A DNA stretch of 35,890 bases, from NCBI RefSeq assembly GCF_030531065.1, contig NZ_JAUNOQ010000019.1, forward strand, positions 1 through 35,890. The letters are read 5' to 3'. Source of the stretch: Phascolarctobacterium sp. Lineage in GTDB: Bacteria > Bacillota > Negativicutes > Acidaminococcales > Acidaminococcaceae. Positions 2,587-17,566 of the stretch are shown one piece after another. Numbering within the stretch: the first letter of the stretch is position 1; each line of letters begins with the position of its first letter. A program made the translations under genes and the position numbers. The notes beneath the pieces were generated by a model. The model was not told the origin of the DNA and ran no database searches. It saw nothing but the letters and a program-made list of their open reading frames with translations.

Positions 2587-4362
2587 TTAAATTTTTTTAG
2601 AAATCTCAAGCTGCTTCTCACATTTCGTAAGCAGCTTAAGCTCTTCTAAAATTTGCTCTTTAAGTGAAAGATTTTCTTCCCTTCCTGATTCTATATGATT
2701 GGCATGGTTAAGATGGTTTCTAACTTCGGTAATTTTTACATAATTATTAACCAAAGGAGCCAATAATTCAGTTGGAACGAAAAAAGTAATCGATCTTTTC
2801 TGTTCAAGCTCCATTAGATATTCAAACCTAAATTTTTTGTTCGCAGCAGTAGTATTATTATTTTTTCCTGAAACCTCAATACCAAAAAATTGGCACACCT
2901 TTTCCTTGCTTATACTGCCTAATAGTCTAAAGAAGAATTTATCGAAACACCCTTCGACGTTAGTATATCTTTTAGAAAGGAATCTCTCTATATTATTATT
3001 AGAAGGACATCCTTCTCTGATAAAGTATTTTATCCCATTATTTTCAGTTAATCTATTATAATACTTATACCAACCGGCAGCGCTATCTTCACTCCTAGAT
3101 TTAAAAGCGCTTATTTCTTCCAATAAATTATCAAGTTTTTCATTTATATGGCCATATATTTCTTTAATTTCCAAAATACTTTCATTAGAAACAGACAAGT
3201 CTTTAATCATAGTATAATTAAGTTTTATTAAACCTGCATCTTTAAGACTTTTAGCCATACTTGTTCCTAAAACCGAACGCTCTGATACATTAGCCCTTTC
3301 CTCTTGATAATTTTTTAAGAACTCAATACGCCAATCAGACCATATATTTTTACTTGAACAAACTTTTTCGATATCATGATTATTTATAATAATAAATCCT
3401 TTATCCATAATATATCCAGGTAACCATTCTGTACAAAAAGTTATAGCCTGTTGCAAAAGACCTTTTTCTACACACCATTTTATCAACACCGGAATACTGT
3501 CAAGTTTGTCGTGATAATGCAAAATACCAGCATAATCCTTTTCTATCATCGGCAACATTTTAACAAATAAATGCTCCTGTTCTGATATTTTTCCTTCCAC
3601 AGGATTCAATAAATGCCTTTTATATCCTTGTATAGCTCTGTCCAATTCATTTATAGTTTCCAACAAATAATCTCTATTTGTGCTAACCTTAATTTGTTCA
3701 GAAAAGCTTTCCATTTGCTTCAACAGATGCTCTAAATCAGCAGATTTTCCCTCTACTAATTTAAAATACTTTTGCAACTGAAATACATTACCATTTTCAG
3801 CAAACTCGCTAGCACCGCCAATCAAAGTATAAAGCTCTACTAACTCTCGCACATTTTCAATAATATGTTCAGAATAATTTGTATAAGTTATACATCCCAG
3901 CTCATAGCCTGCATATTGTAATAGTTTTAAAAGTACCAACATCAACACATTTGCATGACGAAACCCTCCTGTAAAGTCTAAATGTATCGTAACCTTATTT
4001 TGCTCTACCGGATATTTTTTCTGTAAAGCATCAAACATCTCTCCGATGCTTTTAAATGAACCGGTAAAAACAGATTTTTCGTCAAAGGGAATAGCGTTAA
4101 TTGGATAATCCTTATAAACAAAAATCCTACAAAAATTATCGAAATCTTTTGAAGCCACAGCCGAAGTAACAAAAGCATAAACGCTATCTATGCGCTCACT
4201 TTTCTTATCTAAATACCAATCAATATATTTCAAAGCAGTTTCATTAGTGTGGACACAACTTGTTCTAAAATTGCCGCTTTGATCATAATAAATCTCCGGT
4301 TTAGCGTCTTTGCGCAAGGGGCTCATAAAAAAGATTACTATGTTCTTATTGGCTGATTCCAT
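2587..4362 (-). CDS. CARF-HEPN-like protein of the TM1812/DxTHG group
   Basis: This 591-residue protein has an N-terminal Rossmann-like region (residues 1-190) starting with a hydrophobic strand (NIVIFFMSPL). It contains DFTGGFR at 129-135, the position and form of the DxTHG motif of CRISPR-associated CARF proteins such as Csx1/TM1812. A long helical region follows, and the C-terminus carries RNHLNH at 548-553, fitting the R-X4-H active-site motif of HEPN ribonucleases. In known relatives the CARF domain binds cyclic oligoadenylate and switches on the HEPN RNase. That activity is inference here, because no cyclase, cas10 or CRISPR array is in the window. It is the last gene of a three-gene operon; its ATG lies 17 bp inside the preceding gene. 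The domain-family call is fairly strong, the ligand unknown. Confidence 0.75.
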   Translation of the reverse strand: MESANKNIVIFFMSPLRKDAKPEIYYDQSGNFRTSCVHTNETALKYIDWYLDKKSERIDSVYAFVTSAVASKDFDNFCRIFVYKDYPINAIPFDEKSVFTGSFKSIGEMFDALQKKYPVEQNKVTIHLDFTGGFRHANVLMLVLLKLLQYAGYELGCITYTNYSEHIIENVRELVELYTLIGGASEFAENGNVFQLQKYFKLVEGKSADLEHLLKQMESFSEQIKVSTNRDYLLETINELDRAIQGYKRHLLNPVEGKISEQEHLFVKMLPMIEKDYAGILHYHDKLDSIPVLIKWCVEKGLLQQAITFCTEWLPGYIMDKGFIIINNHDIEKVCSSKNIWSDWRIEFLKNYQEERANVSERSVLGTSMAKSLKDAGLIKLNYTMIKDLSVSNESILEIKEIYGHINEKLDNLLEEISAFKSRSEDSAAGWYKYYNRLTENNGIKYFIREGCPSNNNIERFLSKRYTNVEGCFDKFFFRLLGSISKEKVCQFFGIEVSGKNNNTTAANKKFRFEYLMELEQKRSITFFVPTELLAPLVNNYVKITEVRNHLNHANHIESGREENLSLKEQILEELKLLTKCEKQLEISKKI

Positions 4363-5287
4363 GTCTTTTCGTCACCCTTTCCAGCGCCTGAATATGAAAA
4401 GCTTCCAGCTTCTTGATATTTTTACGAATCGTATCCGTTTGATAGTTTAAATAGCCTGCAAAAACTTCTACTTCTAAAATATCCAATAATTTTTGTACCA
4501 ATCGGCGCTGCTCATAATAATCTATGTAAGCCTTTTCCGCCAATTTCTGCAAAATCAGAGGAATCATCCGCAAATAAAGAGTATACATATTCCCCGTCCA
4601 CCAACATCTGTCCAAGGGATAAAGGGTGCGCGTCTGCTTAGTCAAGCCGTATGACATTCTAATTATATCGGCTAAAAGCTTCTGCGAATCTTCTTTATCT
4701 TCCTCTTTGCTAAAATCGTCATAAACGTCGCGCAGAACAGTTTCTCCTTCTTCATTTTCCAATATAGCGTCAACAGAAGCCAACCCATACCAGGCAAAAA
4801 TGTCTTCCACTTTTTGGCGCAATTCTTCGTACACAACATCGTCCTCCACTTGCTCGCGCAAAGAAGCGATAATCTTTTCCTTATTTGGATACAATATGTA
4901 GCTTCTATTAAGAAACAGCCCGTTCTCCATAAATAAATCTCTGCATTGATCGCTTCTATATCTGGAAAGTTCAAAATTATCCTCTTGAAATTTCTCCGCC
5001 TTAGAACCCATATTCTTTATACAGTAGCAAGCCCAAAATAATTTTTCAAATAATATTGGTTCTCCAGCATCCTCGCATGTCGCGCCATACTTAGCCAAGG
5101 AACTATTGAACGCTTCTGTAAAATGGATGGTATCAAAGTTTCGATTATACATTTTATTATACAAAAGATACGCAAGTTCCGATTTCTTAGCTTCTCTTTG
5201 ATTAACGGTAAGGCTGCTAAAACATAGCTCCCGCGCCAGCTGCTCTATTCTATCTGCTTTTGCCATAATTACACCCGCTTTACTCAT
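4346..5287 (-). CDS. Unrecognised helical protein between two CARF-like genes
   Basis: A 313-residue, charged, predominantly alpha-helical protein that I do not recognise. No signal peptide, membrane segment, nucleotide-binding loop or GGDD cyclase motif is visible. Features are an aromatic stretch (DRCWWTGNMYTLYLRM) near residues 227-242 and a basic, helical C-terminus (IRKNIKKLEAFHIQALERVTKR). Its start overlaps the stop of the upstream CARF-like gene as ATGA (5284-5287), so translation is probably coupled, and its 3' end overlaps the CARF-HEPN gene by 17 bp. The fixed sandwich position suggests a structural or regulatory partner of the two CARF proteins; this is inference. An in-frame ATG seven codons downstream (MAKADRIEQ) is an alternative start. 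Confidence 0.7.
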   Translation of the reverse strand: MSKAGVIMAKADRIEQLARELCFSSLTVNQREAKKSELAYLLYNKMYNRNFDTIHFTEAFNSSLAKYGATCEDAGEPILFEKLFWACYCIKNMGSKAEKFQEDNFELSRYRSDQCRDLFMENGLFLNRSYILYPNKEKIIASLREQVEDDVVYEELRQKVEDIFAWYGLASVDAILENEEGETVLRDVYDDFSKEEDKEDSQKLLADIIRMSYGLTKQTRTLYPLDRCWWTGNMYTLYLRMIPLILQKLAEKAYIDYYEQRRLVQKLLDILEVEVFAGYLNYQTDTIRKNIKKLEAFHIQALERVTKRHGISQ

Positions 5288-5910
5288 TCGCTGATAATTA
5301 TATCGAACAGCTTGTCCAAATCCTGCTTTTGTCCGCTTTTAGCGTTACCGGCTATAGCATTGAGATAAAATAAAGACGTAACGTCGCATAGCTTGGAAGT
5401 ATTTTTATCCAACGCCGCGTCCGTACCGGTATATTTTTGCGAGTAAAGCACGCAGCGCATTTCTGCTCCCACAGCAGCCTTTACCGCATAAGCCAAGGCG
5501 ATAAACATACTCAAAGTATAAACTTTCATGCCAAAGGTAACGTCCGTATAAATGAGATCGTTATCACGAACGAGTAAAGTAATTTCTTTAAAAAATTTGG
5601 TAAAAGTTTCAGCTTCAAATTCTTTATTAATGGCAATTTCTTCAAAATGAACTTTCGCCTGACGTTGGCTGAGTAAAGTATTTACTTCCTCATGAAATTT
5701 AGCGTAATTATCGCTTGCTTGCTGTACAGAACCGCTGCCATGCTCGACGGCAGTAATAATTTCTACTTCGTCCCCTTCTTGAACCTCATTATTAATTATA
5801 TAAGACAAAGGAAAATCAAAATGCTGCGTACTTAATTCAAAATCCTCGCTGACATAATCGGTTGGATTCAATTTTCCCAATAACATAACAGAAACAAATA
5901 CCTTACGCAT
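5284..5910 (-). CDS. Small stand-alone CARF-like protein (DxTHG type)
   Basis: This 208-residue protein looks like one CARF-type Rossmann domain without an effector domain. It has an N-terminal strand (RKVFVSVMLLG), a second strand and loop (DEVEIITAVEHGSG), the motif DVTFG at residues 123-127 in the slot of the DxTHG motif, and then a hydrophobic helix (LSMFIALAYAV) and strand (EMRCVLYS). DVTSLFYLNAI near the end resembles the D(L/V)T-x-(F/L) segment after the CARF core. Stand-alone CARF proteins can be ring nucleases or sensors; nothing here decides which. It is first in the operon, with a clear ribosome site (AGAGGTG about 8 nt before ATG). The call is from motif pattern only. Confidence 0.6.
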   Translation of the reverse strand: MRKVFVSVMLLGKLNPTDYVSEDFELSTQHFDFPLSYIINNEVQEGDEVEIITAVEHGSGSVQQASDNYAKFHEEVNTLLSQRQAKVHFEEIAINKEFEAETFTKFFKEITLLVRDNDLIYTDVTFGMKVYTLSMFIALAYAVKAAVGAEMRCVLYSQKYTGTDAALDKNTSKLCDVTSLFYLNAIAGNAKSGQKQDLDKLFDIIISE

Positions 5911-6248
5911 AAACTACACCTCTTTATATTTTATTTAATTAGTGATTTGATAAAGGCAAACGCAACAAATAACTTATTTTAAATTCTACAAAACAATAAA
6001 AAACTCCTGCTAACAATAGCATCCCTGAAAAATTTCTCTGAAACAGAAGAGATTTTTAAATTATGTCAGCCTACTCCTCCTCTGCATCGTAATTTTAAAA
6101 GCTTTCTACTATATATATCTGCACAAAAGTAGCTTAAACGGCATACTTTTCAAAAGTATTGCCTTTCAAATTATTTTATCATGTATGCAGCTCCGGCTAG
6201 TATAACTTTTCTTTTTCAAAAGCTAATATCAATTTTTATGGCAAATTG
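5911..6248. other. AT-rich spacer upstream of the CARF-like operon
   Basis: No gene is visible. The region must hold the operon promoter; on the minus strand AT-rich candidates (TAAAAT, TATAAA) lie just before the AGAGGTG ribosome site, but I cannot choose a -35. A perfect 8-bp inverted repeat, ATACTTTT-C-AAAAGTAT, lies at 6143-6159, about 235 bp before the first start codon, and could be an operator or a small hairpin. Confidence 0.5.
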
Positions 6249-6446
6249 TCAAGCTAAGTGCAACGATGTTTTAAAATAGACCTCATATGGTGTTTTAAAG
6301 CCGAGGCATTTCCTTGGCCGCAGATTTAGCTTATCTATCTGCTCTTGAATATATTCTTCCGGTATGTTAGAGATATCTTTTCCTTTAGGAAAATATTCTC
6401 TTAGTAAGCCGTTAGTGTTTTCGTTATTGCCACGTTCTCACGGATG
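6249..6446 (-). pseudogene. IS30-family transposase C-terminal remnant
   Basis: The minus strand from 6446 to the TGA at 6249-6251 reads HP*ERGNNENTNGLLREYFPKG and later KLNLRPRKCLGFKTPYEV, the conserved C-terminus of IS30 transposases (normally HPWERGxNENTNGLLREYFPKG). The Trp codon has become TGA. The first two-thirds of the gene are absent: the homology stops at 6446, exactly where sequence matching the 3' end of the neighbouring Rpn gene begins. Confidence 0.85.
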
Positions 6447-6804
6447 AAGTCGTAGAATAAATTTTATCACGAAACTAAATCGACGTTTCTAAAACCGCAA
6501 ACGCCCGGCGTACTACCGCAGTACGCGCGGGCGTTATTTTATAGGCGAACATTCTTTTAGTCGCGTTTCGCGCTAGGAAGCGCGTAAATAAATTTTTTAT
6601 GCGCCTTTCCTAGCGCGTTTGGCGAGGGGAAGTAAAAATCTTGATTTTTAGATTAGGAAGAATATGCTCTTGCCTGTAAGCGAAATTGCTGCTATACTAA
6701 AATCAGTAAATCTTTGACAACTAAAAAAAGCATTAAACGGCGCTTCTCTTGCAATGCGCCGCGATGAAGTTTGGGAATTTTTTTGAGAAATCCTAAGCGA
6801 AATT
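6447..6804. repeat. Leftover flank of a lost Rpn-type gene copy
   Basis: GAAGTCGTAGAATAA at 6447-6461 is identical to the last codons of the Rpn-type gene (7789-7803). The following 130 bp are about 90 percent identical to 7804-7926, including a terminator hairpin. The match then breaks for about 170 bp and resumes at about 6762-6804 with CCGCGATGAAGTTTGGGAAT, as at 7928-7967. The extra 170 bp contain another inverted repeat (CGCTAGGAAGCGC near 6572 against GCGCCTTTCCTAGCG near 6601). From 6805 to 6954 I see nothing but the ribosome site of the next gene. Confidence 0.8.
6500..6543 (+). terminator. Rho-independent terminator, copy 1
   Basis: The 15-bp stem AACGCCCGGCGTACT pairs with AGTACGC(G)CGGGCGTT around the loop ACCGC, with one bulged G, followed by TTATTTTATA. 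It is the same hairpin as the one behind the intact Rpn-type gene. Confidence 0.75.
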
Positions 6805-6954
6805 TAGCAGTACCAATCCGATTGCGAATTTAAACGCAGTCGGCGGTACTGCTTTTTTATTTTTAAGGCGGTGATTATCTTGCTTTAATACAGCTCGTTA
6901 AATAATTTAACTGCGCTGCCCAGCCGCAAATATGTTATAATTAAGGAGAAGAAC

Positions 6955-7803
6955 ATGACGAAATTTGAAGACCTGACTATCCAAAATAATTTTTTATTCC
7001 AGCAGGTGATGAAAAACCCGCGCATCTGCAAGCGGCTTATCGAAGAACTGCTCAATATTAAAATTGCCGAGCTTTCCTATCCTTACGCTGAAAAAACAAT
7101 CCAAACCGGCATCGATAGCCGCGGCGTTCGTCTCGACATCATCGTCGCCGACGAGAACCGCACGCATTATAATTTGGAAATGCAGGTGAAAAATACCAAA
7201 AGCGCGGATACGGGCGAACCGCTTTTGCCAAAACGCACACGCTATTATCAAGCGTCGCTAGACATGGATTTGTTGGGCAAAGGGCAGGATTTCGACAAGC
7301 TTAACGACACTTATATTATCTTTATCTGCGCTTTTGATTTATTCGGTGAAGGACGCTATATTTATACTTTCAAAAACAAATGCCTGGAAAATCCGGAATT
7401 GGCAATGGGCAACGGCGCTACGGTCGTCTTCGTCAACTCTTTAGGAAAGAAGGGCGCTATTTCGCCCATGGCCAAAAGCTTTTTAGCATATGTCAACGAT
7501 AAAACCGTGAGCGACGATTTTACGGAAGAAGTGGACGCTGCCGTGGCTGCGCTCAAGCGCGACAGCGAAGTGAGGAGGCAATTTATGTTGTTAGAAATGG
7601 CATTGCACGACGAACGCATGGAAGGACGCAAAGAAGGTCGTCAGGAAGGGCGAGAAGAGGGAATAGCGGAAAACGCACGCTATGTTGCGCTCAAGATGCT
7701 CAAAGATAAAGTGGCTCTTGCTTTTATTGTAAAATATTCTAATTTAAGTAAGGAAGAAGTCTGCGCCTTGGCGCAGGACAACGGTTTGGAAGTCGTAGAA
7801 TAA
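6955..7803 (+). CDS. Rpn-family PD-(D/E)XK nuclease / putative transposase
   Basis: A 282-residue protein of the recombination-promoting nuclease (Rpn; transposase_31-like) group. It opens with the family signature FEDLTIQNNFLFQQVM, and the nuclease core shows RLDIIVAD (Asp61) and NLEMQV (Glu75-x-Gln77), the D...ExQ form of PD-(D/E)XK active sites. The C-terminus has the typical charged run GRKEGRQEGREEG (about 224-236), often length-variable between copies. Family members nick or cut DNA and promote RecA-independent recombination in E. coli. The ribosome site AAGGAG sits 6 nt before ATG. It is a single gene on the strand opposite to its neighbours, ending in a strong hairpin terminator. A decayed duplicate flank lies upstream. 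Confidence 0.85.
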   Translation: MTKFEDLTIQNNFLFQQVMKNPRICKRLIEELLNIKIAELSYPYAEKTIQTGIDSRGVRLDIIVADENRTHYNLEMQVKNTKSADTGEPLLPKRTRYYQASLDMDLLGKGQDFDKLNDTYIIFICAFDLFGEGRYIYTFKNKCLENPELAMGNGATVVFVNSLGKKGAISPMAKSFLAYVNDKTVSDDFTEEVDAAVAALKRDSEVRRQFMLLEMALHDERMEGRKEGRQEGREEGIAENARYVALKMLKDKVALAFIVKYSNLSKEEVCALAQDNGLEVVE

Positions 7804-7842
7804 AAATTAGCGCGAAACCAAATCGACGTTTCTCAAACGACA

Positions 7843-7886
7843 AACGCCCGGCGTACTACCGCAGTACGCGCGGGCGTTATTTTATA
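7843..7886 (+). terminator. Rho-independent terminator of the Rpn-type gene
   Basis: GC-rich 15-bp stem with ACCGC loop and one bulge, then TTATTTTATA, 40 bp after the stop codon. The minus-strand reading of the hairpin is followed by TTTGTCGTTTG, so it may also stop transcription arriving from the Hsp70-like operon. Confidence 0.8.
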
Positions 7887-7961
7887 GCGAACATTCTTTT
7901 GAGTCGCGTTTCGCGCTAGGAAGCGCGCCGCGATGAAGTTTGGGAATTTCTTTGAGAAATC

Positions 7962-8363
7962 CTAATCGAGATCATCAAAATCAGGTTCCCAGAAATATTT
8001 GTTCTCTTCATAAAGTCTTCTAGCCTTATCCATATCCCCTTTAAAAAATACGAAAAACTGCTCCTTTAACGTTAATTTTTCACCGTTAAAGCTTTTTTCT
8101 TTAAGAGCCTCTATTTTTCTATTTATTTTTATCTGTTCCCTGCAAAAGGCTATTTCTTCCGGAGTAGCGTCAGAAGGTATGTCGGATTCATCCATACATT
8201 GTTTCATTTTAATCATTCTTTTAAAGGCCAGATATTCTTTGCTAGGCCCAGCCTTACGACGATAAGTTCCGCCATATGAATAATCGTCGTCATATTCGTT
8301 CTCCGAATAATCTTCTCCTCTAGATTCATATTCAAAATCGCTGTTAAAACTTTCAAAGCTCAT
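7962..8363 (-). CDS. Small acidic protein downstream of the Hsp70-like gene
   Basis: A 133-residue protein that I do not recognise. The N-terminal third is acidic and tyrosine-rich (SENEYDDDYSYGGTY) and probably disordered; the rest is charged and helical (KEYLAFKRMIKMKQ, EIAFCREQIKINRKIEAL). There is no J-domain HPD motif, so it is not an obvious DnaJ partner. The start at 8363 is chosen because GGAGGT lies 8 nt before that ATG; an upstream ATG at 8387 has no such site. It is the last gene of the operon, 72 bp after the Hsp70-like stop. Its final bases lie in the sequence that is also repeated near 6800. Confidence 0.7.
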   Translation of the reverse strand: MSFESFNSDFEYESRGEDYSENEYDDDYSYGGTYRRKAGPSKEYLAFKRMIKMKQCMDESDIPSDATPEEIAFCREQIKINRKIEALKEKSFNGEKLTLKEQFFVFFKGDMDKARRLYEENKYFWEPDFDDLD

Positions 8364-8435
8364 ACAAACTACCTCCATTGTTATCATAAATTTAAAATGT
8401 CTGCAAGTACGGTACCCTCGAAACGTAGAACTTTT

Positions 8436-11288
8436 TTAATCGCTGCAGCCTATTTCCATCTTCTCCAGCAAATACTCTTCTTCAGCTTCCGTCAGCGCCG
8501 TTCCTTCTATCATCTTGCGCACAATCCTGGCTTTCTTCAGCAAATTACGCACTACGACGCCGGAATAATTTTGCGGTATTTGCTCCAAGGTAAAGCGCAC
8601 ATATTCCAAAGTTTTGGCGTCAACCTTGCTGTACCCCCACCGCTGGTCGCAAATATAGCCCAAAGCAAACAAAGAAGAATATAAGCCGCTGAATTGACGG
8701 TATTCGTTTATATAATTATTATTTATTACGCAGCAGAGAGCCACGGCAGCTTCATTTTCATCAAAAGGAATTTGGTACTCTTCCTTACCTTTGCGCAAAG
8801 AAATTCCCAAAGCTCTGGCCCTATTGCCTAACCAACCGATATTTGCTCCATTATAAACACAATCCCTGACCTTGTCAAAAATCCAAGCGTGTTCTATTCT
8901 CGCTAAGCTAAAAGCGTACAAGCAAGCGTCCTGATAGCTGCGTAAATCGCGCAGCTTGTTTAACTCAAGCAACTGCGCCTTGCTGCCGCAAACGCCCAAC
9001 GCAAGTATCGCCTGTATGTTGACGTTTATATTTCTCGTAATATAATGATATCCTCCTAAAGGCAGCGATAATTGCTCAAGGCAAATTTTAGCCAGCGCCT
9101 CCAGCTGCTCGCTATTCCATCCCGGGGCCAAATAACGCGCCAGCAAAAGTAAATGCATTCGCAAATTTGCGTCTTGCGAACGCTTCAGCTCGTCGATGAG
9201 CGGCCAGGCAAATTCCTCCGGGTTAGCGGCTTTTTTCAGCTTTTTAATTCTTTTCTGGATATCTTTGCGAATAGAACCCGGCGACCTCAAACTATAATGA
9301 TTGCAATAGGACATTTGCAAATATTGCTGTTTCAGCCATTTGATTTCGGTATAAGGGTCATAAGCGGCGCCGCTCTTAAAGCCTTTATTATTGATAGGTC
9401 TGGACTCGCGCCCTAAAGCGTGGTCGTCGCTGTAATAACCGACCGAAATTTCCGCTTGCTGACTTTCCAAAATATTTTCGCCGTCGTAATCGCTTGTAAA
9501 TGTCATTTCCATTTTTAAAAGCTTATTGGCGTTCATTTGTAAATCAATGCTTACATAGGCGCCGTCGTCATAGCTGCCGTCGAGCGTTACGCGACCGCTG
9601 GCAATGGTCATGTATTCGTCGGCGCTGATTTTCCTTTTAATAGGAATAGCTACTTCCCGTTGCTGCGGCGCCAGCTTAAAACCTTTTAATGTTTCGGCCT
9701 TATAAGGCAATTCGCTGCCAGCGGCAATCAATTCTTGAGTTTCACCGTTGCGCATGCCCAGGTACAGGCTTTCGTTAAGTATTTGCTTACCCCATTCAAT
9801 AGCAGCCGGGCGAAAAGCTTTTCTGCTTAAACCTGCACCGGCTGCCCGACGCTCCAGCACCGCTTCCGGCAAGCTAGTATCGCCCAATAAACGCATATCT
9901 TCCTGCATCTGCTCGGCGTACTTATGCAAATAATAATGATAGACTGCCGCGCCGCGCGCAACGGATTGATCCGGATCCAAAGCTACGATGGGCTCCATAC
10001 CAAAGAAAGCTTGTAAACGTTCCGTAACCATATAAAATTTGCTCATCCCGCCGTTAACAACGACTGCGTCCACGCGCGGTTCAGCGGCTAATTTAACCGC
10101 CGCCTTTTGCAAAACGTCCAAAACAGGATAAATAATATTGCGGCCTTCAGGCAGAGTTTTCCAAATCTTATAATCGTCAAATTTTAAATCCGCGCCCATA
10201 AACGGCTGCAAAATATTTTCAATTTCTTCCTGCGAAAAGCTATCGTCGTAAGCGTAGCCAATGCCGCCCATATTGCCGCCGACAAAAAATTTATCATCGT
10301 CGTCCCACCCGAACGAATCGCTCGCAGCAGCTTGAGAACGCATTCTTTCGCTCAGCTCCAGTTTTAATTCTTCGGCATAACGTACGAGCTGCGGCAAAAC
10401 AGCCTGCTCCTGTTGACGTATTTGGCGCACGATATCGGGATACGCGGCATACTGCTGCAAATAGCGGCGATACATTTCCTGCGCCAGGGCTTCGTCAAAA
10501 TCGTCGCCGCCCAGCAAAGTATAACGATTGGCCGCAATTTCGTCTACTTTTAAAACATCCGGGCAATCTTCGCGCCTTTTTATTTTGTGCAGAGTAATAT
10601 CCAGCGTGCCTCCGCCCAAATCAAAAACCAACACGTTCTTTTCACTGTTGAAATCAATTATCTTTTCGGAAATTTCTCCGTTCTGCACTTGGTTAATCAA
10701 ATCGTAAATAACGGCGTTGGGCTCGCTGAGCAGCACCGCCCGCTCGCTGCCGTCGTCATTCAACACCTTTACCCCGGCCAACGCAGCCGCGTCCCGCGTA
10801 GCCTTGCACATGGCCGCGTCGAAATTAGCCGGCACAGTTATAACCACGTCCTCCAGCTTCGTGCGGTAAATGCGTCCCGCTTCCTGCAAAAGGTGCTGCA
10901 AGATGCGCGCCGAAACCTGCGCCGGAGTTTTGTCAGGCACAGCGTCGGCCAAACCCACGGCCAGCTTTTTGCCCATTTGGCTTTTGATGGATTTAGCAAC
11001 CAGCTGTGGGCGCAATGGATATTGTATTTTAGCAAAATCGCCGACCAGCGGCTCGTAGCCCTGCTCCTCGCGATAATAAACGCAGGAAGGCAGCAACGGC
11101 TTTTTTTGCGTGCTTAATTTGGCCTTGGTCGTAACGCTGTTATAAATATCGACAGCGCGGGAGATATCCACAACTTTGCTCACAATATCCCCATTGGCTT
11201 TCAAATTGACTGTCGCTAAAACTGAATTAGTCGTTCCCAAATCTATGCCCACGCACAACTCGTTATGTTCTTCTTTATTAATCAACAT
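8436..11288 (-). CDS. Hsp70-like chaperone ATPase with extended C-terminus
   Basis: A 950-residue protein, much longer than DnaK (about 610-640). The N-terminal actin-like ATPase domain is complete: GIDLGTTN at 14-21 (phosphate 1), VITVPANF at 149-156, LSEPNA at 187-192, FDLGGGTLD at 222-230 (phosphate 2) and VNGGMSK at 411-417 (adenosine site). An Asp/Gly-rich insertion (about 327-349) interrupts the domain. Residues 460-640 resemble a beta-sandwich substrate domain. The last 300 residues are helical, perhaps HEAT-like, and not part of standard Hsp70. AAAGGAGG lies 9 nt before the ATG, which overlaps the upstream GrpE-like gene by 11 bp. It is therefore a second, specialised Hsp70 rather than the housekeeping dnaK; the client is unknown. 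Confidence 0.85.
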   Translation of the reverse strand: MLINKEEHNELCVGIDLGTTNSVLATVNLKANGDIVSKVVDISRAVDIYNSVTTKAKLSTQKKPLLPSCVYYREEQGYEPLVGDFAKIQYPLRPQLVAKSIKSQMGKKLAVGLADAVPDKTPAQVSARILQHLLQEAGRIYRTKLEDVVITVPANFDAAMCKATRDAAALAGVKVLNDDGSERAVLLSEPNAVIYDLINQVQNGEISEKIIDFNSEKNVLVFDLGGGTLDITLHKIKRREDCPDVLKVDEIAANRYTLLGGDDFDEALAQEMYRRYLQQYAAYPDIVRQIRQQEQAVLPQLVRYAEELKLELSERMRSQAAASDSFGWDDDDKFFVGGNMGGIGYAYDDSFSQEEIENILQPFMGADLKFDDYKIWKTLPEGRNIIYPVLDVLQKAAVKLAAEPRVDAVVVNGGMSKFYMVTERLQAFFGMEPIVALDPDQSVARGAAVYHYYLHKYAEQMQEDMRLLGDTSLPEAVLERRAAGAGLSRKAFRPAAIEWGKQILNESLYLGMRNGETQELIAAGSELPYKAETLKGFKLAPQQREVAIPIKRKISADEYMTIASGRVTLDGSYDDGAYVSIDLQMNANKLLKMEMTFTSDYDGENILESQQAEISVGYYSDDHALGRESRPINNKGFKSGAAYDPYTEIKWLKQQYLQMSYCNHYSLRSPGSIRKDIQKRIKKLKKAANPEEFAWPLIDELKRSQDANLRMHLLLLARYLAPGWNSEQLEALAKICLEQLSLPLGGYHYITRNINVNIQAILALGVCGSKAQLLELNKLRDLRSYQDACLYAFSLARIEHAWIFDKVRDCVYNGANIGWLGNRARALGISLRKGKEEYQIPFDENEAAVALCCVINNNYINEYRQFSGLYSSLFALGYICDQRWGYSKVDAKTLEYVRFTLEQIPQNYSGVVVRNLLKKARIVRKMIEGTALTEAEEEYLLEKMEIGCSD

Positions 11289-12387
11289 TTTCTTTTTCCT
11301 CCTTTACCTTAGGTCGCGAAATTTGCACCTGCTTTTCGCTATATATCCAACCGGGAGAAATTACCCGAATTTGCTTTTCTTCTGCCGCGCCGGCAAAAGG
11401 ACTGCCTTCATATTGCCAAAATTCTATATCCGCCGCCTTTACCTTATGCAAAGAGCCCGGTTGAAGCTGCGGGTCGATATGATTATCCCGCATAAATTGA
11501 ATTAATTTTTTTACCAAAATCAAAAGACCGTTAAGCTCCAGCGGAATCTGGCAGCCGCTGTCGCGTAATTTTGCCATGCCCACGCGCAGCTCCAGCAGCT
11601 GGTCTAAAATGCAGCCGTATTTTTCACTGTTCAACTTAGCGAAAAATTCCGTAAGTTCCTGCAAGCGGACGCTCGCCAAACGCTCGTCGAATTCTTCCTG
11701 TAAATCTCCCAACAGCATATTGGACTGCTCCAAAGCTTTTTCTGTTTGGGATAAGCGCAACTTTAAATTTTCGTAATCCGCCTGCAGCGCGGCAGGCGCG
11801 GCCTTGCCCTGCCCCGGAACGCGGCTTTCTCTTTTCTGGCTGCTGTAAGCCTTTTCGATAACGTCATGCAAATCATACAAAAGATATTTGCAAAACGTAT
11901 CGTTAAACCCCAACGCCAAACCCCTTTCCTTTTCTCCTAAAAGCTGCGGTATCGACGCCGCCGCTACCGCCAATAATAAATGGCTGTAAATGCCGCGCCG
12001 CTGCCCGCGTTTACTTTCTAAAAAGCTTCTATAACCGCTCTGGTATAATTTTAAAGCGTTTATATCGCCTGCCAACGCTTTTTGCAGATAGATGACCGTC
12101 GTCGCCGCGTCGGCAAAAACTTCTGCGCGGCGCGGCGCGTTATTGATATAATAATTGCGGTATAATTGCACAACAGCTTCCACATCGCATTCAAAACCGA
12201 ATTTATCGACAAGACATTTACAGCAGGCCGCAGGGCTTAATTTATAGTCTTCGGCCAAAAGCTGCAGCATCGCGTTTTCTAATTTTATCCCGGCAAAAGT
12301 TTTGCGGCAGCGTTTGCTTTTTTCCGCAACGCAGCGGTGGAATTCTTCAATAATGGCCTGTTTCTTCATATCCTTTTCATTAAACAT
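11278..12387 (-). CDS. GrpE-like protein with extra N-terminal helical domain
   Basis: A 369-residue protein. Residues 1-185 are an unrecognised helical domain with several Cys (CCKC at 55-58). Residues 200-240 form a likely coiled coil. Residues 240-302 are helical (ELTEFFAKLNSEKYGC and so on), and 303-361 resemble the GrpE beta-wing: DP near 305, then GWIYSEKQVQISRPKVK, comparable to the GY...RVxRPAxVxV ending of GrpE. GrpE dimers release ADP from Hsp70, and the next gene, overlapping by 11 bp, encodes an Hsp70-like ATPase, so a dedicated exchange factor is a reasonable inference. The resemblance is weak in sequence but supported by order and context. The ribosome site GGAG lies 9 nt before ATG. 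Confidence 0.6.
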   Translation of the reverse strand: MFNEKDMKKQAIIEEFHRCVAEKSKRCRKTFAGIKLENAMLQLLAEDYKLSPAACCKCLVDKFGFECDVEAVVQLYRNYYINNAPRRAEVFADAATTVIYLQKALAGDINALKLYQSGYRSFLESKRGQRRGIYSHLLLAVAAASIPQLLGEKERGLALGFNDTFCKYLLYDLHDVIEKAYSSQKRESRVPGQGKAAPAALQADYENLKLRLSQTEKALEQSNMLLGDLQEEFDERLASVRLQELTEFFAKLNSEKYGCILDQLLELRVGMAKLRDSGCQIPLELNGLLILVKKLIQFMRDNHIDPQLQPGSLHKVKAADIEFWQYEGSPFAGAAEEKQIRVISPGWIYSEKQVQISRPKVKEEKENVD

Positions 12388-12399
12388 TTGACATTGCTC

Positions 12400-13527
12400 C
12401 TATAACATAAAAATTTGCCCCTCTTGGGGAAAGATAAATTGCGTCCGGCAAGCGCCTTCTGCGGCAAAATCCCTGGCGATACCGCCAAAATTTGGTCCGG
12501 ACGGGCAATGCACCAAAAGCGCCAGCCGCGGATTTAATATTTTTATAAACTCCTTCATTTCCGCATAGCTTTCGTGCAGCGTATAATTGCCGCCAAAAAT
12601 TTTATAGCCTTCCCCCTCCGGCGCTTCCTTGCCGCTGACGGCAATGTGCGGCTTTGCGGCGTCTTTGGCTAAACAATTATAATGGCAGCCGCTTAGAATT
12701 GGCAGCCGCAGCTTTTCGGCAATTAACGCCGCCTCCATAGCCGCGCCTTTCAAAAATACAGGGAACTGCAGTCCGTTTTGCCGCTGCCAATTATTGACGG
12801 CCAAAAGCAATTCCATTGTCCGCCCGGCGTCCGCCGTCCGGAACCATACCGAATAACCGCGCGACAAATATTCATACGCCTTTTCCAACATATCCGCCAA
12901 CGTGCGCGGCTGCTTTTCAGAAGGCCTGTTGGCGTGCAAAGCGCAAATAATTAAAATATCTACGTCTAAATCAACCGGCAGCCACGCCTGATTTTGGACA
13001 AAGCAGGAATGAAAAGAATAATCGCCGGTATAAAGAATACGCTTGCCCCGATATTCAAACAGCGTCATCATCGCACCCGGCAAATGCCCGGCAGGATAAA
13101 AAGTTACGTTGTAATTTTCTTCGCGCAGCGTTTGCAGATAACTTACCTCCCGGCAAAAGGATTGCATCTGCAAATTTTGCCGCAGCCTGCGTTTTTTTGA
13201 CTGCATAGCCAGGCTGTGCTCCGCCAAAAATTTTGTAGCCGCCGTCAGATAAACCGCAGCCTGCGGCGCCTGCTGCATAAGTTCCGGCAGATAACCGACA
13301 TGGTCGCCGTGGGCGTGCGATATATAAACCTTATCCAGCTGGCTTAGCGAATCCATAAAGGGCGAAGCCAAAAGATAATGTAGCTTAGGCAAAACCGTTA
13401 TATCATTGCGCCTGGCTACGCCGCAATCCAACAACAAATTGCTGCCGCCCAAGCGCAAATAATAACAGCTGGCCCCCACGCTCTGCGCGCCTCCCAAGGC
13501 CATAAAATAAATATTATCGTCGTACAT
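12400..13527 (-). CDS. Metallo-beta-lactamase-fold protein of beta-CASP type
   Basis: A 375-residue metal-dependent hydrolase-fold protein. GGAQSVGASCYYLRLGGSNLLLDCG near the N-terminus is the usual opening strand pair, written here as one continuous region at 12-36 with GAQSVGAS as its key part. HAHGDH at 71-76 is the zinc-binding HxHxDH motif, GHLPGA at 147-152 supplies another ligand, and TGDYS at 167-171 the bridging Asp. This arrangement resembles CPSF/RNase J-type nucleases more than beta-lactamases. Cys replaces the common final His environment (VHCPSG near 354), so activity is uncertain. The start at 13527 is supported by AGAAAGG 9 nt upstream; the open frame reaches 13947, but the extension is basic and unlike the family. 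It is the first gene of the Hsp70-like operon, 12 bp before the GrpE-like gene. Confidence 0.8.
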   Translation of the reverse strand: MYDDNIYFMALGGAQSVGASCYYLRLGGSNLLLDCGVARRNDITVLPKLHYLLASPFMDSLSQLDKVYISHAHGDHVGYLPELMQQAPQAAVYLTAATKFLAEHSLAMQSKKRRLRQNLQMQSFCREVSYLQTLREENYNVTFYPAGHLPGAMMTLFEYRGKRILYTGDYSFHSCFVQNQAWLPVDLDVDILIICALHANRPSEKQPRTLADMLEKAYEYLSRGYSVWFRTADAGRTMELLLAVNNWQRQNGLQFPVFLKGAAMEAALIAEKLRLPILSGCHYNCLAKDAAKPHIAVSGKEAPEGEGYKIFGGNYTLHESYAEMKEFIKILNPRLALLVHCPSGPNFGGIARDFAAEGACRTQFIFPQEGQIFML

Positions 13528-13764
13528 AAATCCCAACCTTTCTTCCAACGCCGTAATCCTTGCGGAAACTCGCGTTTTACGCCGCCGCTTTTTATTACCG
13601 GGTATCGCTCTTACACTATGAATATCTTTTAAAAAAGGCTCTAAACGGCACGTTCCAAAAAAATTATTATATCCCGACTTCTTTCGCGACGTTCGCAAAT
13701 GTTTTTTTGCCTTCAATATTACAGCTCGCCAACGCGCTCTAATAGGCTTTTTCCAAAAATTTCC

Positions 13765-13793
13765 TTGCCAAAAAATGTTCGTTGTGGTATAGT
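13765..13793 (+). promoter_or_regulatory. Candidate sigma-A promoter toward the macro-domain gene
   Basis: TTGCCA (13765-13770) and TATAGT (13788-13793) are each one base from consensus and are separated by exactly 17 bp. Transcription would start near 13800 and give a leader of about 425 nt containing the 36-bp repeats and a terminator-like hairpin before the macro-domain gene. Confidence 0.5.
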
Positions 13794-13982
13794 AAAGGCA
13801 TAGCCAAAAACAAATCCTTTGCCAAAACCTCGCAGCCCTTGCGCAGCATGCCTTAAAAGGGCTTTTGAAGAATTTGTGAATTAGCGGCTGCTTTAAAATT
13901 CTGCATCTACTTGATGAACAGAATTTTGATTTACTATTGTAGGGCATTTTGCCCGCTCTGGAGGCCGTGTGCGAGCCTCAGA

Positions 13983-14165
13983 GTTTAAAGGCCTGATTAC
14001 CGCTTGCGGTTTTGTAACGCCAGATTAATAATAGGATTCATAAAAGCTTGCGAGTTTAAAGGCCTGATTACCGCTTGCGGTTTTGTAACTCGGGAACGTT
14101 AAGAATGATTTGGTTGAACTCAGAAGCGGGTTTAAAGGCCTGATTATCTTAATACGCAAATAAAC
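13983..14165 (+). repeat. Three 36-bp direct repeats, the last degenerate
   Basis: GTTTAAAGGCCTGATTACCG continuing to GTAAC occurs at 13983-14018 and 14054-14089, identical over 36 bp. A third copy at 14130-14165 keeps the first 17 bp exactly and the closing AAC. The intervals are 35 and 40 bp and unrelated to each other. Each full repeat contains the small palindrome ACCGC-TT-GCGGT followed by TTTT. The geometry resembles a minimal CRISPR array, but no cas gene is near, and the repeats could also be leader-RNA hairpins. The rest of 13528-14224 has no gene that I can support. Confidence 0.8.
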
Positions 14166-14215
14166 CCCAATTACGCATTAAGCTCTTTGCTTGCGCAAAT
14201 TGGGGTCTTTTTCTA
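14163..14215 (+). terminator. Hairpin with T-run just before the macro-domain gene
   Basis: ACCCCAATT near 14164 pairs with AATTGGGGT near 14197-14206 and is followed by CTTTTTCT. It ends only about 10 nt before the ATG at 14225, so it would cut off transcription of the macro-domain gene unless disrupted. That makes it a candidate attenuator. Confidence 0.6.
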
Positions 14216-14224
14216 ACGATTTCC

Positions 14225-14743
14225 ATGCAATATTCAATTATTTTAGGAGATATCGCCACAATTAAAGCCGACGCCATTGTCAACTCGTCCAACGCCTCGT
14301 TGCAAAAAGGGTCCGGTATGTGTAAAACTATTTATGAAAGAGCGGGAGAACGCGAACTATCCGCTTATTTAAAAGATTGCGATTCCTTGCCCTGCGGGCA
14401 TGCTATCGTAACGCCGGCGTTCGCCCTGCCCGCTAAATATATTATTCATACCGTCACGCCCAAATATTATCTTGCCCAAAACGACCGCAGCATTTTGCTA
14501 AGCCAATGTTATTCGGCAATTTTGCAAGCCGCAGCCTTTTACCAAATAAATACGCTGGCAATTCCTTGTCTTGGGGTAGGGCATCACGGCTGGCCCTTAG
14601 CCGAAGCGGCAACGATAGGCGTAAAAACGCTTCAATGGCGCTTAGAAGAACTAAATACTCCGACCGCGCTGCAAAAAATTATTTTCGTTTGTCACACGCA
14701 GGAACAATATGCGGCATATAGCAAATTTATTTTTCCTCTTTAA
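14225..14743 (+). CDS. Macro-domain protein (ADP-ribose binding or hydrolysis)
   Basis: A 172-residue single macro domain. ILGDIATIKADAIVNSSN at the N-terminus is the conserved first strand and loop, GSGMCKTIYERAG corresponds to the GGG(V/M)xxxIxxxAG ligand loop, GHAIVTPAFALPAKYIIHTV is the central strand, and PCLGVGHHGWPLAEAA is the second ligand loop. Family members bind ADP-ribose and often remove it from proteins or nucleic acids, or act on O-acetyl-ADP-ribose. The length is that of a complete stand-alone domain, and the start is fixed by the domain edge. There is no clear ribosome site before the ATG, and a terminator-like hairpin lies immediately upstream. It is transcribed divergently from the Hsp70-like operon. 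Confidence 0.85.
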   Translation: MQYSIILGDIATIKADAIVNSSNASLQKGSGMCKTIYERAGERELSAYLKDCDSLPCGHAIVTPAFALPAKYIIHTVTPKYYLAQNDRSILLSQCYSAILQAAAFYQINTLAIPCLGVGHHGWPLAEAATIGVKTLQWRLEELNTPTALQKIIFVCHTQEQYAAYSKFIFPL

Positions 14744-14752
14744 AGCGCACCG

Positions 14753-14789
14753 CTTTATATTACTCATAACACTTTATATTACTCATAAC
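14753..14789 (+). repeat. 19-bp tandem duplication
   Basis: CTTTATATTACTCATAACA occurs twice back to back directly after the macro-domain stop codon. Confidence 0.85.
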
Positions 14790-14796
14790 ATAATTA

Positions 14797-14842
14797 AAAG
14801 GCGCTCAAAATGCTTAATGCAAATCGAGCGCCTTCTTTGTAT
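14797..14842. terminator. Bidirectional terminator after the macro-domain gene
   Basis: AAGGCGCTC pairs with GAGCGCCTT around a loop of about 19 nt. T-rich tails follow on both strands (TTCTTTGTATTTT on plus; TTTTAATT on minus), so it can serve the macro-domain gene. Confidence 0.7.
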
Positions 14843-14864
14843 TTTGAAAAACTAAAACTTCAGC

Positions 14865-15074
14865 TTAAAACGCCGGTTCAATCGTCCCTTTATATTTATC
14901 GGCGATGAATTTTCTTACGGCTTCGGATTGATAAGCCTTGATAAATTCCTTATACTCCGGCTTATCTTTATCCTTATTGCGGGCCGCGATATTTGTTACC
15001 GCCAACAGCTCGTCCTTAACTTCCAATTCCGGATTTTCCAGACAGCAGACAAATTTATCTGCATACCCTAAACC
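14865..15074 (-). pseudogene. MetQ/NlpA-type lipoprotein C-terminal remnant
   Basis: The minus strand from about 15074 to the TAA at 14865-14867 reads without interruption, including TNIAARNKDKDKPEYKEFI and then FIADKYKGTIEPAF. This is the characteristic C-terminus of methionine ABC transporter substrate-binding lipoproteins (…KYKGxxxPAF). About 200 N-terminal residues with the lipobox are missing, and no permease or ATPase gene is adjacent. It is a scar squeezed between the macro-domain gene and gyrA. Confidence 0.8.
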
Positions 15075-15115
15075 CTAAATTTTTAAATTGGCGTTACCGC
15101 CGCGCTTTCAAAAGC

Positions 15116-17566
15116 TTACTCCTCATCGTCCTCATGGTGAATAGCCGCTAAGGAAACTACCTTATCGTTTTCGTTCAGCGTCATCAGCTTTACGCCCTGA
15201 GCGTTGCGCCCATACTGCGAAACGCTGTCCACGTCGATGCGAATAATAATGCCGCCGGAGGTAATCATCATAATTTCCTGCGCGGGATTGATTACGCGCA
15301 TACCGACTACGCAGCCGGTTTTTTCCGTAATCTTAATATTTATGATGCCCTTGCCGCCGCGTGTCTGCTTGCGGTATTCGCTGACCGCCGTGCGCTTGCC
15401 CATACCGAATTCCGTAGCCGTCAGCACTTCGTAATTTTCGTTGGGCACGCTGTCCATGGCCACAACCTCGTCGCCATAATTCAGGCTGATGCCGCGCACG
15501 CCGTGAGCGGTGCGTCCCATAGGCCGCACGTCCTGCTCGTCAAAGCGGATAGCGACGCCGTTGCGGGTAGCCAGAATAATTTCGCTGTTGCCGTCGGTCA
15601 GCTCGACGCCAATCAAATCCTCGTTTTCATCCAGGTTGATGGCTACCAGACCGGCCTTGCGCGCGCTTTCCAAATCTTTCAGGTTGGTCTTTTTCACCGT
15701 GCCCTTATTGGTCGCCATAAACATAAACTGCTCGTCGGCAAATTCCTTCACCGGAATAACCGCCGTAATTTTTTCACCCTGCTCCAAGGGCAGCAGATTG
15801 ATAATAGCCGTGCCCTTCGCCGTGCGTCCGGCTTCGGGAATTTCGTAACCCTTCTGGCGGTACACGCGGCCCTTATTGGTAAAGAATAAAATATTATGGT
15901 GCGTGGTGGAAAGGAAGAGATGCTCGGCGCAATCCTCCTTCTTGCCGCTGCCGCCGGTTTTGCCGACGCCGCCGCGCTTTTGGTTGCGGAAGGTGTCCAG
16001 CGTCTGGCGTTTGATATAGCCCTGATGGCTGATAGTCACCACGATATTTTCCTCGGCGATTAAATCCTCCACGTCCATATCGGAGGAATCGCGGGAAATT
16101 TCCGTGCGGCGTTCGTCGCCGAACTTCTTTTTCATTTCCAGCAGGTCTTCTTTAATAATATTCATCACCTTGCGCTCGTCGGCCAGCACGCTTTCCAGCC
16201 AATCGATGGTTTCCAGAACGTCGACGTATTCCTCGTCGATTTTTTTGCGCTCCAGACCGGTCAGGCGCTGCAGACGCATATCCAGAATAGCCTGCGCCTG
16301 ACGCTGGCTTAAATTGAAGCCGCTCATTAAATTTTCCCGCGCGATATCGGCGGTGGCGCTGTTGCGGATGGTCGTAATCACGGCGTCCAGATTGTCCAGC
16401 GCAATCTTCAAGCCCTCCAAAATGTGAGCGCGGTCCTTGGCCTTGCCCAGCTCGTAGCGGGTGCGCCGGGTGATGACGTCCTTTTGATGCGCCAGATAAT
16501 ATTCCAAAATCTGTTTTAAATTTAAAATACGCGGCTGACCGTTGACCAGCGCCAGCATAATAATGCCAAAGGAGCTTTGCAGCGCCGTGTGCTTATACAG
16601 CTGGTTCAAAACCACGTCGGGCACTGCGTCGCTTTTTAATTCGATAACGATACGGATACCGTGCTTGAGGTTGGAATAGTCGTCGATATGGCTGATACCC
16701 TCGATAGCGCCGTCCTTAGCCAGCTGAGCGATATCCTTAATCAAATTGGCTTTGTTGACCTGATAGGGGATTTCGCTGACGATAATATTATGCTTGCCTT
16801 TATTGGCAGGCTCGATTACGGCCTTCGCGCGGATTTTTACCACGCCGCGTCCGGTGGTATAAGCGCTGGTAATGCCTTCTTTGCCCAAAATGCAGGCGCC
16901 GGTGGGGAAGTCGGGGCCCTTGATGGCCGTCATCAGCTGCGGGATTTCCACGTCGGGATTGTCGATGAGCATCACGAGGCCGTTGACTACCTCGCATAAA
17001 TTATGCGGCGGAATATTGGTCGCCATACCTACGGCGATACCAGCGCTGCCGTTAATCAGCAGAGCGGGAACCTTGGAGGGCAGCACGCTGGGCTCCTGCA
17101 AGGATTCGTCGTAGTTGGGCACGAAGTCGACGGTGTCCTTTTCAATATCGTCCAGCATAGCCTCGGCCAGCCTTGCCATGCGCACCTCGGTATAACGCAT
17201 AGCGGCGGCGCTGTCGCCGTCGATGCTACCGAAATTGCCGTGGCCGTCGACCATCAGATAACGTGTCGAAAAATCCTGCGCCAGACGCACGATAGCGTCG
17301 TACACCGAGATGTCGCCGTGGGGATGATATTTACCTAAAACTTCGCCGACGATACGAGCGGATTTTTTATAGGGCTTGGACGGAGTCATGCCCGCTTCCT
17401 GCATAGCGTATAAAATACGGCGATGCACGGGCTTCAAGCCGTCGCGCACGTCCGGCAGGGCGCGCTGAATAATAACGCTCATAGCGTAATCGATATAGGA
17501 TTTTTGCATTTCCTCTTCGATATACACCGGCAAAACCTTACCGGTAATCGGTTCTAAATTATCCAC
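15116..17566 (-). CDS. gyrA: DNA gyrase subunit A
   Basis: An 816-residue subunit that breaks and rejoins DNA in the A2B2 gyrase. The N-terminal breakage-reunion domain carries the catalytic Tyr in AAAMRYTEVR (about 129), and the C-terminal beta-pinwheel contains the GyrA box QKRGGVG. The quinolone region reads YHPHGDISVYDAIV: Ile86 occupies the place of E. coli Ser83, where susceptible enzymes usually have Ser or Thr. The codon is ATC at 17309-17311. The start is GTG at 17564-17566 behind AAAGGTG. The acidic C-terminus (HHEDDEE) is normal. gyrB lies upstream, separated by three small genes rather than directly adjacent. Confidence 0.98.
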   Translation of the reverse strand: MDNLEPITGKVLPVYIEEEMQKSYIDYAMSVIIQRALPDVRDGLKPVHRRILYAMQEAGMTPSKPYKKSARIVGEVLGKYHPHGDISVYDAIVRLAQDFSTRYLMVDGHGNFGSIDGDSAAAMRYTEVRMARLAEAMLDDIEKDTVDFVPNYDESLQEPSVLPSKVPALLINGSAGIAVGMATNIPPHNLCEVVNGLVMLIDNPDVEIPQLMTAIKGPDFPTGACILGKEGITSAYTTGRGVVKIRAKAVIEPANKGKHNIIVSEIPYQVNKANLIKDIAQLAKDGAIEGISHIDDYSNLKHGIRIVIELKSDAVPDVVLNQLYKHTALQSSFGIIMLALVNGQPRILNLKQILEYYLAHQKDVITRRTRYELGKAKDRAHILEGLKIALDNLDAVITTIRNSATADIARENLMSGFNLSQRQAQAILDMRLQRLTGLERKKIDEEYVDVLETIDWLESVLADERKVMNIIKEDLLEMKKKFGDERRTEISRDSSDMDVEDLIAEENIVVTISHQGYIKRQTLDTFRNQKRGGVGKTGGSGKKEDCAEHLFLSTTHHNILFFTNKGRVYRQKGYEIPEAGRTAKGTAIINLLPLEQGEKITAVIPVKEFADEQFMFMATNKGTVKKTNLKDLESARKAGLVAINLDENEDLIGVELTDGNSEIILATRNGVAIRFDEQDVRPMGRTAHGVRGISLNYGDEVVAMDSVPNENYEVLTATEFGMGKRTAVSEYRKQTRGGKGIINIKITEKTGCVVGMRVINPAQEIMMITSGGIIIRIDVDSVSQYGRNAQGVKLMTLNENDKVVSLAAIHHEDDEE

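Follow-up and report, generated by a model that had tools for sequence, protein, structure and literature searches.

Four open reading frames coding for a nuclease-like, a GrpE-like, an Hsp70 and an acidic protein are located one after the other on the minus strand of the window, that is the whole stretch of 35,890 nucleotides of Phascolarctobacterium sp. DNA that was analysed, at the positions first described for them. The nuclease-like frame starts with an ATG at 13527 and ends at 12400, with a GAAAGG about 10 nt upstream of the ATG as a plausible ribosome site. It is separated by 12 bp from the GrpE-like frame, which overlaps the Hsp70 frame by 11 bp; the gap between the Hsp70 and acidic genes is 72 bp when the latter starts at 8363 and 48 bp when it starts at 8387. 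The sequence-only reading of this DNA, which had described four same-strand genes spaced by 12, -11 and 72 bp, is thus borne out by the positions of the frames. The features of the locus are as follows.

12400..13527, minus strand: compact CPSF73-type metallo-beta-lactamase/beta-CASP predicted nuclease, 375 aa (Pfam Lactamase_B 1e-11, profile against the PDB, motifs)
11278..12387, minus strand: GrpE-like nucleotide-exchange-factor candidate, 369 aa (AF2 model, VIA fold comparison, Pfam GrpE in relatives)
8436..11288, minus strand: Hsp70 with a C-terminal solenoid, 950 aa (Pfam HSP70 3.9e-38, AF2, VIA)
9909..11258, minus strand: nucleotide-binding domain (NBD) of the Hsp70, residues 11-460 (ATPase residues invariant in 48 sequences)
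9441..9791, minus strand: SBD-beta substrate-binding sandwich of the Hsp70, residues ~500-616 (beta-sandwich in the model, aligned with the DnaK SBD)
8451..9356, minus strand: helical alpha-solenoid, residues ~645-946, replacing the SBD lid (only helices in the model)
7962..8387, minus strand: acidic 141-aa protein, outside the conserved unit (without a credible homologue in related loci)
5284..5910, minus strand: neighbour, CARF-domain protein of the cyclic-oligoadenylate-sensor type (PADLOC CARF2 2.2e-66)
4346..5287, minus strand: neighbour, 313-aa protein between the two CARF genes (no family match)
2587..4362, minus strand: neighbour, CARF-HEPN (Csx1-like) predicted ribonuclease (PADLOC CARF_HEPN 3.3e-75)
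14225..14743, plus strand: neighbour, protein of the macro-domain ADP-ribose hydrolase family, divergent to the trio (Pfam Macro 3.8e-25)

Searches of the core genes with Pfam and NCBIfam assigned the two outer proteins to the metallo-beta-lactamase and Hsp70 families, and gave no match for the middle, 369-aa protein or for the acidic protein, the latter being also without a match in PADLOC. The acidic protein was considered as a fourth member and rejected, since tblastn brought up no credible homologue in the related loci (best E 0.72), and the unit consequently comprises three genes rather than four. The four-gene cassette first proposed therefore stands for the nuclease, the GrpE-like protein and the Hsp70, found together in 50 of 51 loci (see below), and falls for the acidic protein. 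The three proteins of the trio gave either no match or a best E of 0.01 only against the PADLOC models, none of which describes the trio. A CIRCE heat-shock element was searched for and is absent, an Rfam scan of positions 5900-15200 gave no match, and the window contains no CRISPR array.

The HAHGDH and TGDYS metal motifs that had been noticed in the first protein are present and belong to the invariant ligand set of the metallo-beta-lactamases (MBL). The ligands D34, H71, H73, D75, H76, H148 and D169, together with His318 and His340 of motifs B and C, are invariant wherever they are aligned. The glutamate of motif A (ESTYG) is absent and Cys195 stands in its place, a cysteine in all 46 aligned sequences, in a CGxHAxH context; with this replacement, the chemistry of the nuclease may differ from that of CPSF73. 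One early branch of the nuclease family (L064) carries CESTYG at motif A, directly after the cysteine. The NCBIfam matches were aCPSF1 (5.3e-27) and Cas14 (8.3e-24), both below the cut-off. When the profile of the nuclease family was compared with the PDB, it met CPSF73 (8.8e-52), INTS11 (4e-48) and Cas14 (8.8e-33), with RNase J2 at 3e-15, so that CPSF73, INTS11, aCPSF1/FttA and Cas14 all come ahead of RNase J. Membership of the RNase J family was rejected, since CPSF, INTS11 and Cas14 score far higher by profile. With its MBL ligands and the histidines of motifs B and C, the 375-aa protein is a predicted beta-CASP nuclease of the CPSF73 group, and judging from these sequence relationships its substrate is probably RNA.

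The AF2 model of the 369-aa protein (pLDDT 86) consists of a helical N-domain (residues 7-187), a long helix of 54 residues (199-252), two bundle helices and a beta wing (304-363); the elements of GrpE, i.e. the long helix for pairing, the short helix bundle and the beta wing, are all present in the monomer model. In the VIA comparison the first six rows are without exception GrpE structures, either bound to DnaK or mtHsp70 or modelled with them, with moderate Z values of 6.3-8.0, and the next row has a Z of 4.4. A plain Foldseek search placed GrpE at position 16 only, with an E of 0.8, and the likeness is thus topological and moderate. Among 46 relatives, 4 matched Pfam GrpE weakly, at best with 1.2e-4; the protein of the window gave no match. 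The GrpE-like wing that had been proposed is supported by the model and by the fold comparison, and modelling of the protein alone, which the earlier reading had put forward as a check, gave a GrpE-like fold. On the basis of this model, the protein is likely a GrpE-like exchange factor for the Hsp70 of the trio.

The 950-aa Hsp70 had been described as having all the nucleotide motifs and about 300 extra C-terminal residues, and both points hold. The ATPase residues D16, T20, K102, E189, D223, T228 and D230 are invariant in 48 sequences, and in the AF2 model (pLDDT 82) the extra residues form an alpha-solenoid at 645-946. The VIA comparison with DnaK gave a Z of about 32 over residues 7-617. 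The canonical alpha-helical SBD lid was not encountered, the region 645-946 being modelled as a longer helical solenoid. The protein is, as judged by its NBD and the modelled SBD-beta, a DnaK-like ATPase with a substrate domain. As had been pointed out, no J protein is encoded near the trio, and the only J-domain gene detected in the host genome is on another contig, together with grpE and dnaK of the canonical set. The trio is therefore an extra, dedicated chaperone set, and the 'self-contained' cycle first suggested is unproven, because the DnaJ of the host could serve the trio; J function may be supplied in this way.

Relatives were not found by the first searches with single sequences. A plasmid search with the Hsp70 led to pNCT2_2 of Priestia megaterium, with the order MBL, unknown, Hsp70, HEAT and then two coiled-coil genes, and the middle protein of this set led to pNY3A of Klebsiella grimontii, with the same gene order. 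Searching species genomes with an alignment of a short Hsp70 stretch, built from the three sequences of the window and of the Priestia and Klebsiella plasmids, then gave 199 relatives, and the best 80 of them were retained. Two forms of the locus were distinguished. The compact form, with the nuclease (~385 aa), the GrpE-like protein (~360 aa) and the Hsp70 (~930 aa), occurs in Negativicutes, in Lachnospiraceae and other Clostridia, in Treponema, in Synergistaceae (Synergistetes) and in one Thermotogae MAG. The long form has five genes, coding for the nuclease, a GrpE-like protein (~500 aa), an Hsp70 (~595 aa), a HEAT protein (~570 aa) and a coiled-coil protein (~450 aa), and is hosted by Bacillaceae and relatives and by the Priestia and Klebsiella plasmids; its nuclease has an N-terminal extension and a full beta-CASP plus RMMBL. 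The GrpE-like regions of the two forms align colinearly (hhalign profile E 1.6e-4). By profile, the Hsp70 tail gave no detectable match to the HEAT protein that the Bacillus form encodes separately, and homology between the two was not retained, their folds looking alike in kind only. The compact form gave no match in plasmids and phages, and the Klebsiella form no DNA match in E. coli genomes. The nearest beta-CASP relatives in other Bacillota were rejected as carriers of the module, having no Hsp70 nearby.

Some loci depart from these two arrangements. In Caloramator (L059) the order is Hsp70, a 541-aa protein and then a 623-aa MBL protein. In the complete genome of Allobaculum sp. Allo2 (L113) the copy of the trio has broken frames and is apparently a module in decay. 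In some Selenomonadaceae genomes (G685:C45, G720:C229 and G697:C191) a full copy of the GrpE-like gene has an additional N-terminal half of the gene close by.

Among the 57 compact loci, all found through the Hsp70 only (from the best 80 of the 199 relatives), 51 had enough upstream DNA to be tested, and 50 of these carry both partners upstream of the Hsp70 in the order nuclease, GrpE-like, Hsp70. The gaps are short or the genes overlap in most of them, and the pairwise divergences of the three proteins correlate (r 0.94-0.96). Conservation of the three-gene order is far beyond chance. The linkage could be an evolutionary accident of one conserved operon whose products do not interact, and the co-divergence could then reflect common descent within lineages; however, two divergent architectures keep the same order and the testable compact loci are complete with a single exception, which makes this explanation very improbable. 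The trio is almost certainly a conserved functional unit. The sequence-only reading had named a gene order not conserved in relatives as grounds against it, and the survey found the order kept; its other ground, the lack of a predicted GrpE-like interface between the 369-residue protein and the Hsp70, is likewise opposed by the GrpE-like fold of the protein modelled alone. The conserved linkage supports its proposal that a dedicated Hsp70 and GrpE-like factor would be tied to one nuclease-like enzyme.

The distribution of the unit is patchy. The middle protein is found in only 1 of 59 genomes of the window's own family, that of the window itself, in 23 of 300 genomes of the class and in 40 of 66 genomes of one genus. 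In the Hsp70 tree the sequences group by lineage, with the window sequence apart from other Negativicutes (weak support). The patchy presence, the grouping by lineage and the co-divergence fit an accessory module that is inherited at the level of lineages and occasionally transferred. The left end of the window consists of an IS region that encodes an ISL3-type transposase (590-1468), and a 122-bp tandem duplication (55-298) is present at the contig end.

In the window, the CARF and CARF-HEPN genes adjoin the trio away from any cas operon, and a PD-(D/E)XK (Rpn) transposase-like gene (6955-7803) separates them from it. The genome has a complete type III-A locus on another contig (C20), around which no CARF protein was recognised among the open reading frames. 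Elsewhere, in L062, two pieces of a CRISPR array flank the trio, which comes after a type III-D operon that includes CARF and Cas6 and has a homologue of the window CARF protein (5284..5910) encoded beside it. In L095 the trio follows Cas10, Cmr3 and RAMP genes and is itself followed, after about 4 kb, by an array of 17 repeats, in L066 Cas6 is directly upstream, and in L165 Cas6 and Csm1 are 3.8 kb away, beyond recR/dnaX. Linkage to cas genes was found in 4 of 77 trio loci and in none of 41 control loci treated by the same method, a difference that is not significant alone, the control being small. Apart from these four loci with cas genes and the window with its CARF genes, most trio loci show no type III cas linkage. 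Most compact loci, notably those of Selenomonadaceae and Treponema, have housekeeping neighbours such as tatC, ffh and dnaX. The long form has plasmid and defence-gene neighbours; several defence models are represented among them, the pPIWI-associated and ShosA/PsyrA types included.

Enzymes removing ADP-ribose recur near the trio: in addition to the macro-domain gene of the window (14225-14743), two Epulopiscium-group genomes (L091 and L127) have a macro domain and a SIR2-like protein upstream of it, and the Thermotogae MAG has an ADP-ribosylglycohydrolase nearby (L095, 12457-13704). In three Bacillus genomes (L055, 13960-15963; also L054 and L056), a 670-aa protein with dsRNA-binding (dsRBM) and RNase III-like domains is encoded directly after the long-form cassette.

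The Hsp70/GrpE-like pair might act in maturation only, folding or metal-loading an unstable metallo-nuclease as HscA/HscB do for Fe-S proteins, with the nuclease serving housekeeping RNA processing. The NCBIfam match of the Hsp70 to HscA (1.5e-44, below the cut-off), the intact ATPase and the many loci in housekeeping neighbourhoods all agree with this. However, the presence of the trio is patchy within one genus and one family, unlike that of a housekeeping processing factor, other beta-CASP relatives do without an Hsp70 partner, and mobile and CRISPR contexts occur; we consider maturation alone rather unlikely. The reading that we prefer goes beyond mere folding, and we give about even chances to gating of the nuclease by the pair. 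The trio would be an accessory three-gene module in which a CPSF73-type metallo-endonuclease, acting most likely on RNA, is matured, held back or released by a private Hsp70/GrpE-like cycle on infection or stress, a proposal that we hold with a confidence neither above nor below the midpoint.

Hsp70 machines are usually general. Here the Hsp70 would work as a clamp driven by ATP, its sandwich binding peptides and its solenoid protein or RNA, and on the simplest reading its client would be the nuclease or what the nuclease acts on. Through its substrate domain and solenoid, the Hsp70 would keep the nuclease, or a complex of nuclease and target, in a single state, which would be locked when ATP is hydrolysed; the host DnaJ or the client may trigger this hydrolysis, and the GrpE-like dimer would reset the Hsp70. 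The activity of the nuclease could so be matured, held back or released upon infection or stress, and in several genomes the module may work beside type III CRISPR. A function in defence or RNA turnover is plausible given the CPSF type of the nuclease and the contexts with type III CRISPR, with many relatives lying among housekeeping genes, and a role of the trio in immunity or stress has in our estimate slightly less than an even chance. In a broader reading, the trio would be a widespread undescribed immune module: its Hsp70/GrpE-like cycle would turn a CPSF-type RNA endonuclease on and off, and type III CRISPR would have recruited the module on several occasions as an effector arm. This reading is speculative and on balance doubtful. 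The trio travels together through many unrelated gut and soil bacteria. If the preferred reading is true, bacteria of several phyla would offer a clear example of a chaperone cycle serving as a regulatory switch, with a private Hsp70 and exchange factor bound up with a single nuclease, and this nuclease would represent a bacterial branch of the enzymes that cut pre-mRNA in eukaryotes. With the compact form, the question comes down to three genes and is thereby testable.

A different role for the Hsp70 is suggested by CnuD of the CoCoNuT type III systems, in which an Hsp70 NBD/SBD is combined with HEAT-like repeats, McrBC partners and degenerate ATPase motifs (PMC11090510). The Hsp70 of the trio could likewise be chiefly a targeting subunit that binds RNA or ribosomes, a role proposed for CnuD, and delivers the nuclease to aberrant or viral RNA; its chaperone cycle would then be secondary. 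The architecture of NBD/SBD and helical repeats is alike (PMC11090510) and there are RNA-centred neighbours such as the dsRBM-RNase III-like gene. However, in contrast to the degenerate motifs of CnuD (PMC11090510), the ATPase residues of the trio are all invariant and an exchange factor is always encoded with its Hsp70, and we regard a mainly targeting role as quite improbable.

The statement of the sequence-only reading that no described system has this composition holds, for the trio, in the open-licence literature, where no published system of this composition was found. The CoCoNuT type III systems are similar in having an Hsp70 and a helical repeat in a predicted RNA-targeting system with CARF neighbours (PMC11090510), whereas the trio has an intact ATPase and GrpE-like and MBL partners instead of McrB/McrC; scans of the trio and of adjacent genes of the window found no McrB-like GTPase or McrC/CnuC domain. 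Conflict systems with a GAP1-N2 GTPase may carry HSP70 and GrpE, which are then encoded together in a predicted conflict system (PMC7159879), but the trio has neither the GTPase nor the FNIII/DnaJ protein and has a nuclease partner instead. In the MBL nuclease-trypsin protease pairs, a ComEC-like DNase is gated by proteolysis (PMC12799240); a partner controls an MBL nuclease there, whereas the trio has a CPSF-type enzyme with a chaperone partner. Cas14 is the beta-CASP CRISPR effector (PMC12669027) of type VII systems, and with CPSF73, INTS11 and aCPSF1 (FttA) it shares the metal ligands and beta-CASP motifs B and C of the trio nuclease and provides its nearest PDB profiles. The trio nuclease differs from all four in its compact size of 375 aa, its reduced beta-CASP cap and the replacement of the motif A glutamate by a cysteine with CGxHAxH, and from type VII CRISPR in lacking a Cas10-like C-terminal tail and any Cas5 or Cas7 in the unit or adjacent to it. 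The canonical DnaK-GrpE(-DnaJ) machine resembles the trio in its DnaK-like NBD and SBD-beta, in all ATPase residues and in a GrpE-fold partner, here encoded just upstream. Unlike it, the trio encodes no J protein, has a 300-residue solenoid in place of the lid and a GrpE-like protein with an added helical N-domain of 190 residues, and is always coupled to a nuclease, while the genome keeps a separate canonical set. We therefore file the trio as a variant of the Hsp70-GrpE machine and not as a member of the CoCoNuT, GAP1-N2, MBL-protease or Cas14 systems.
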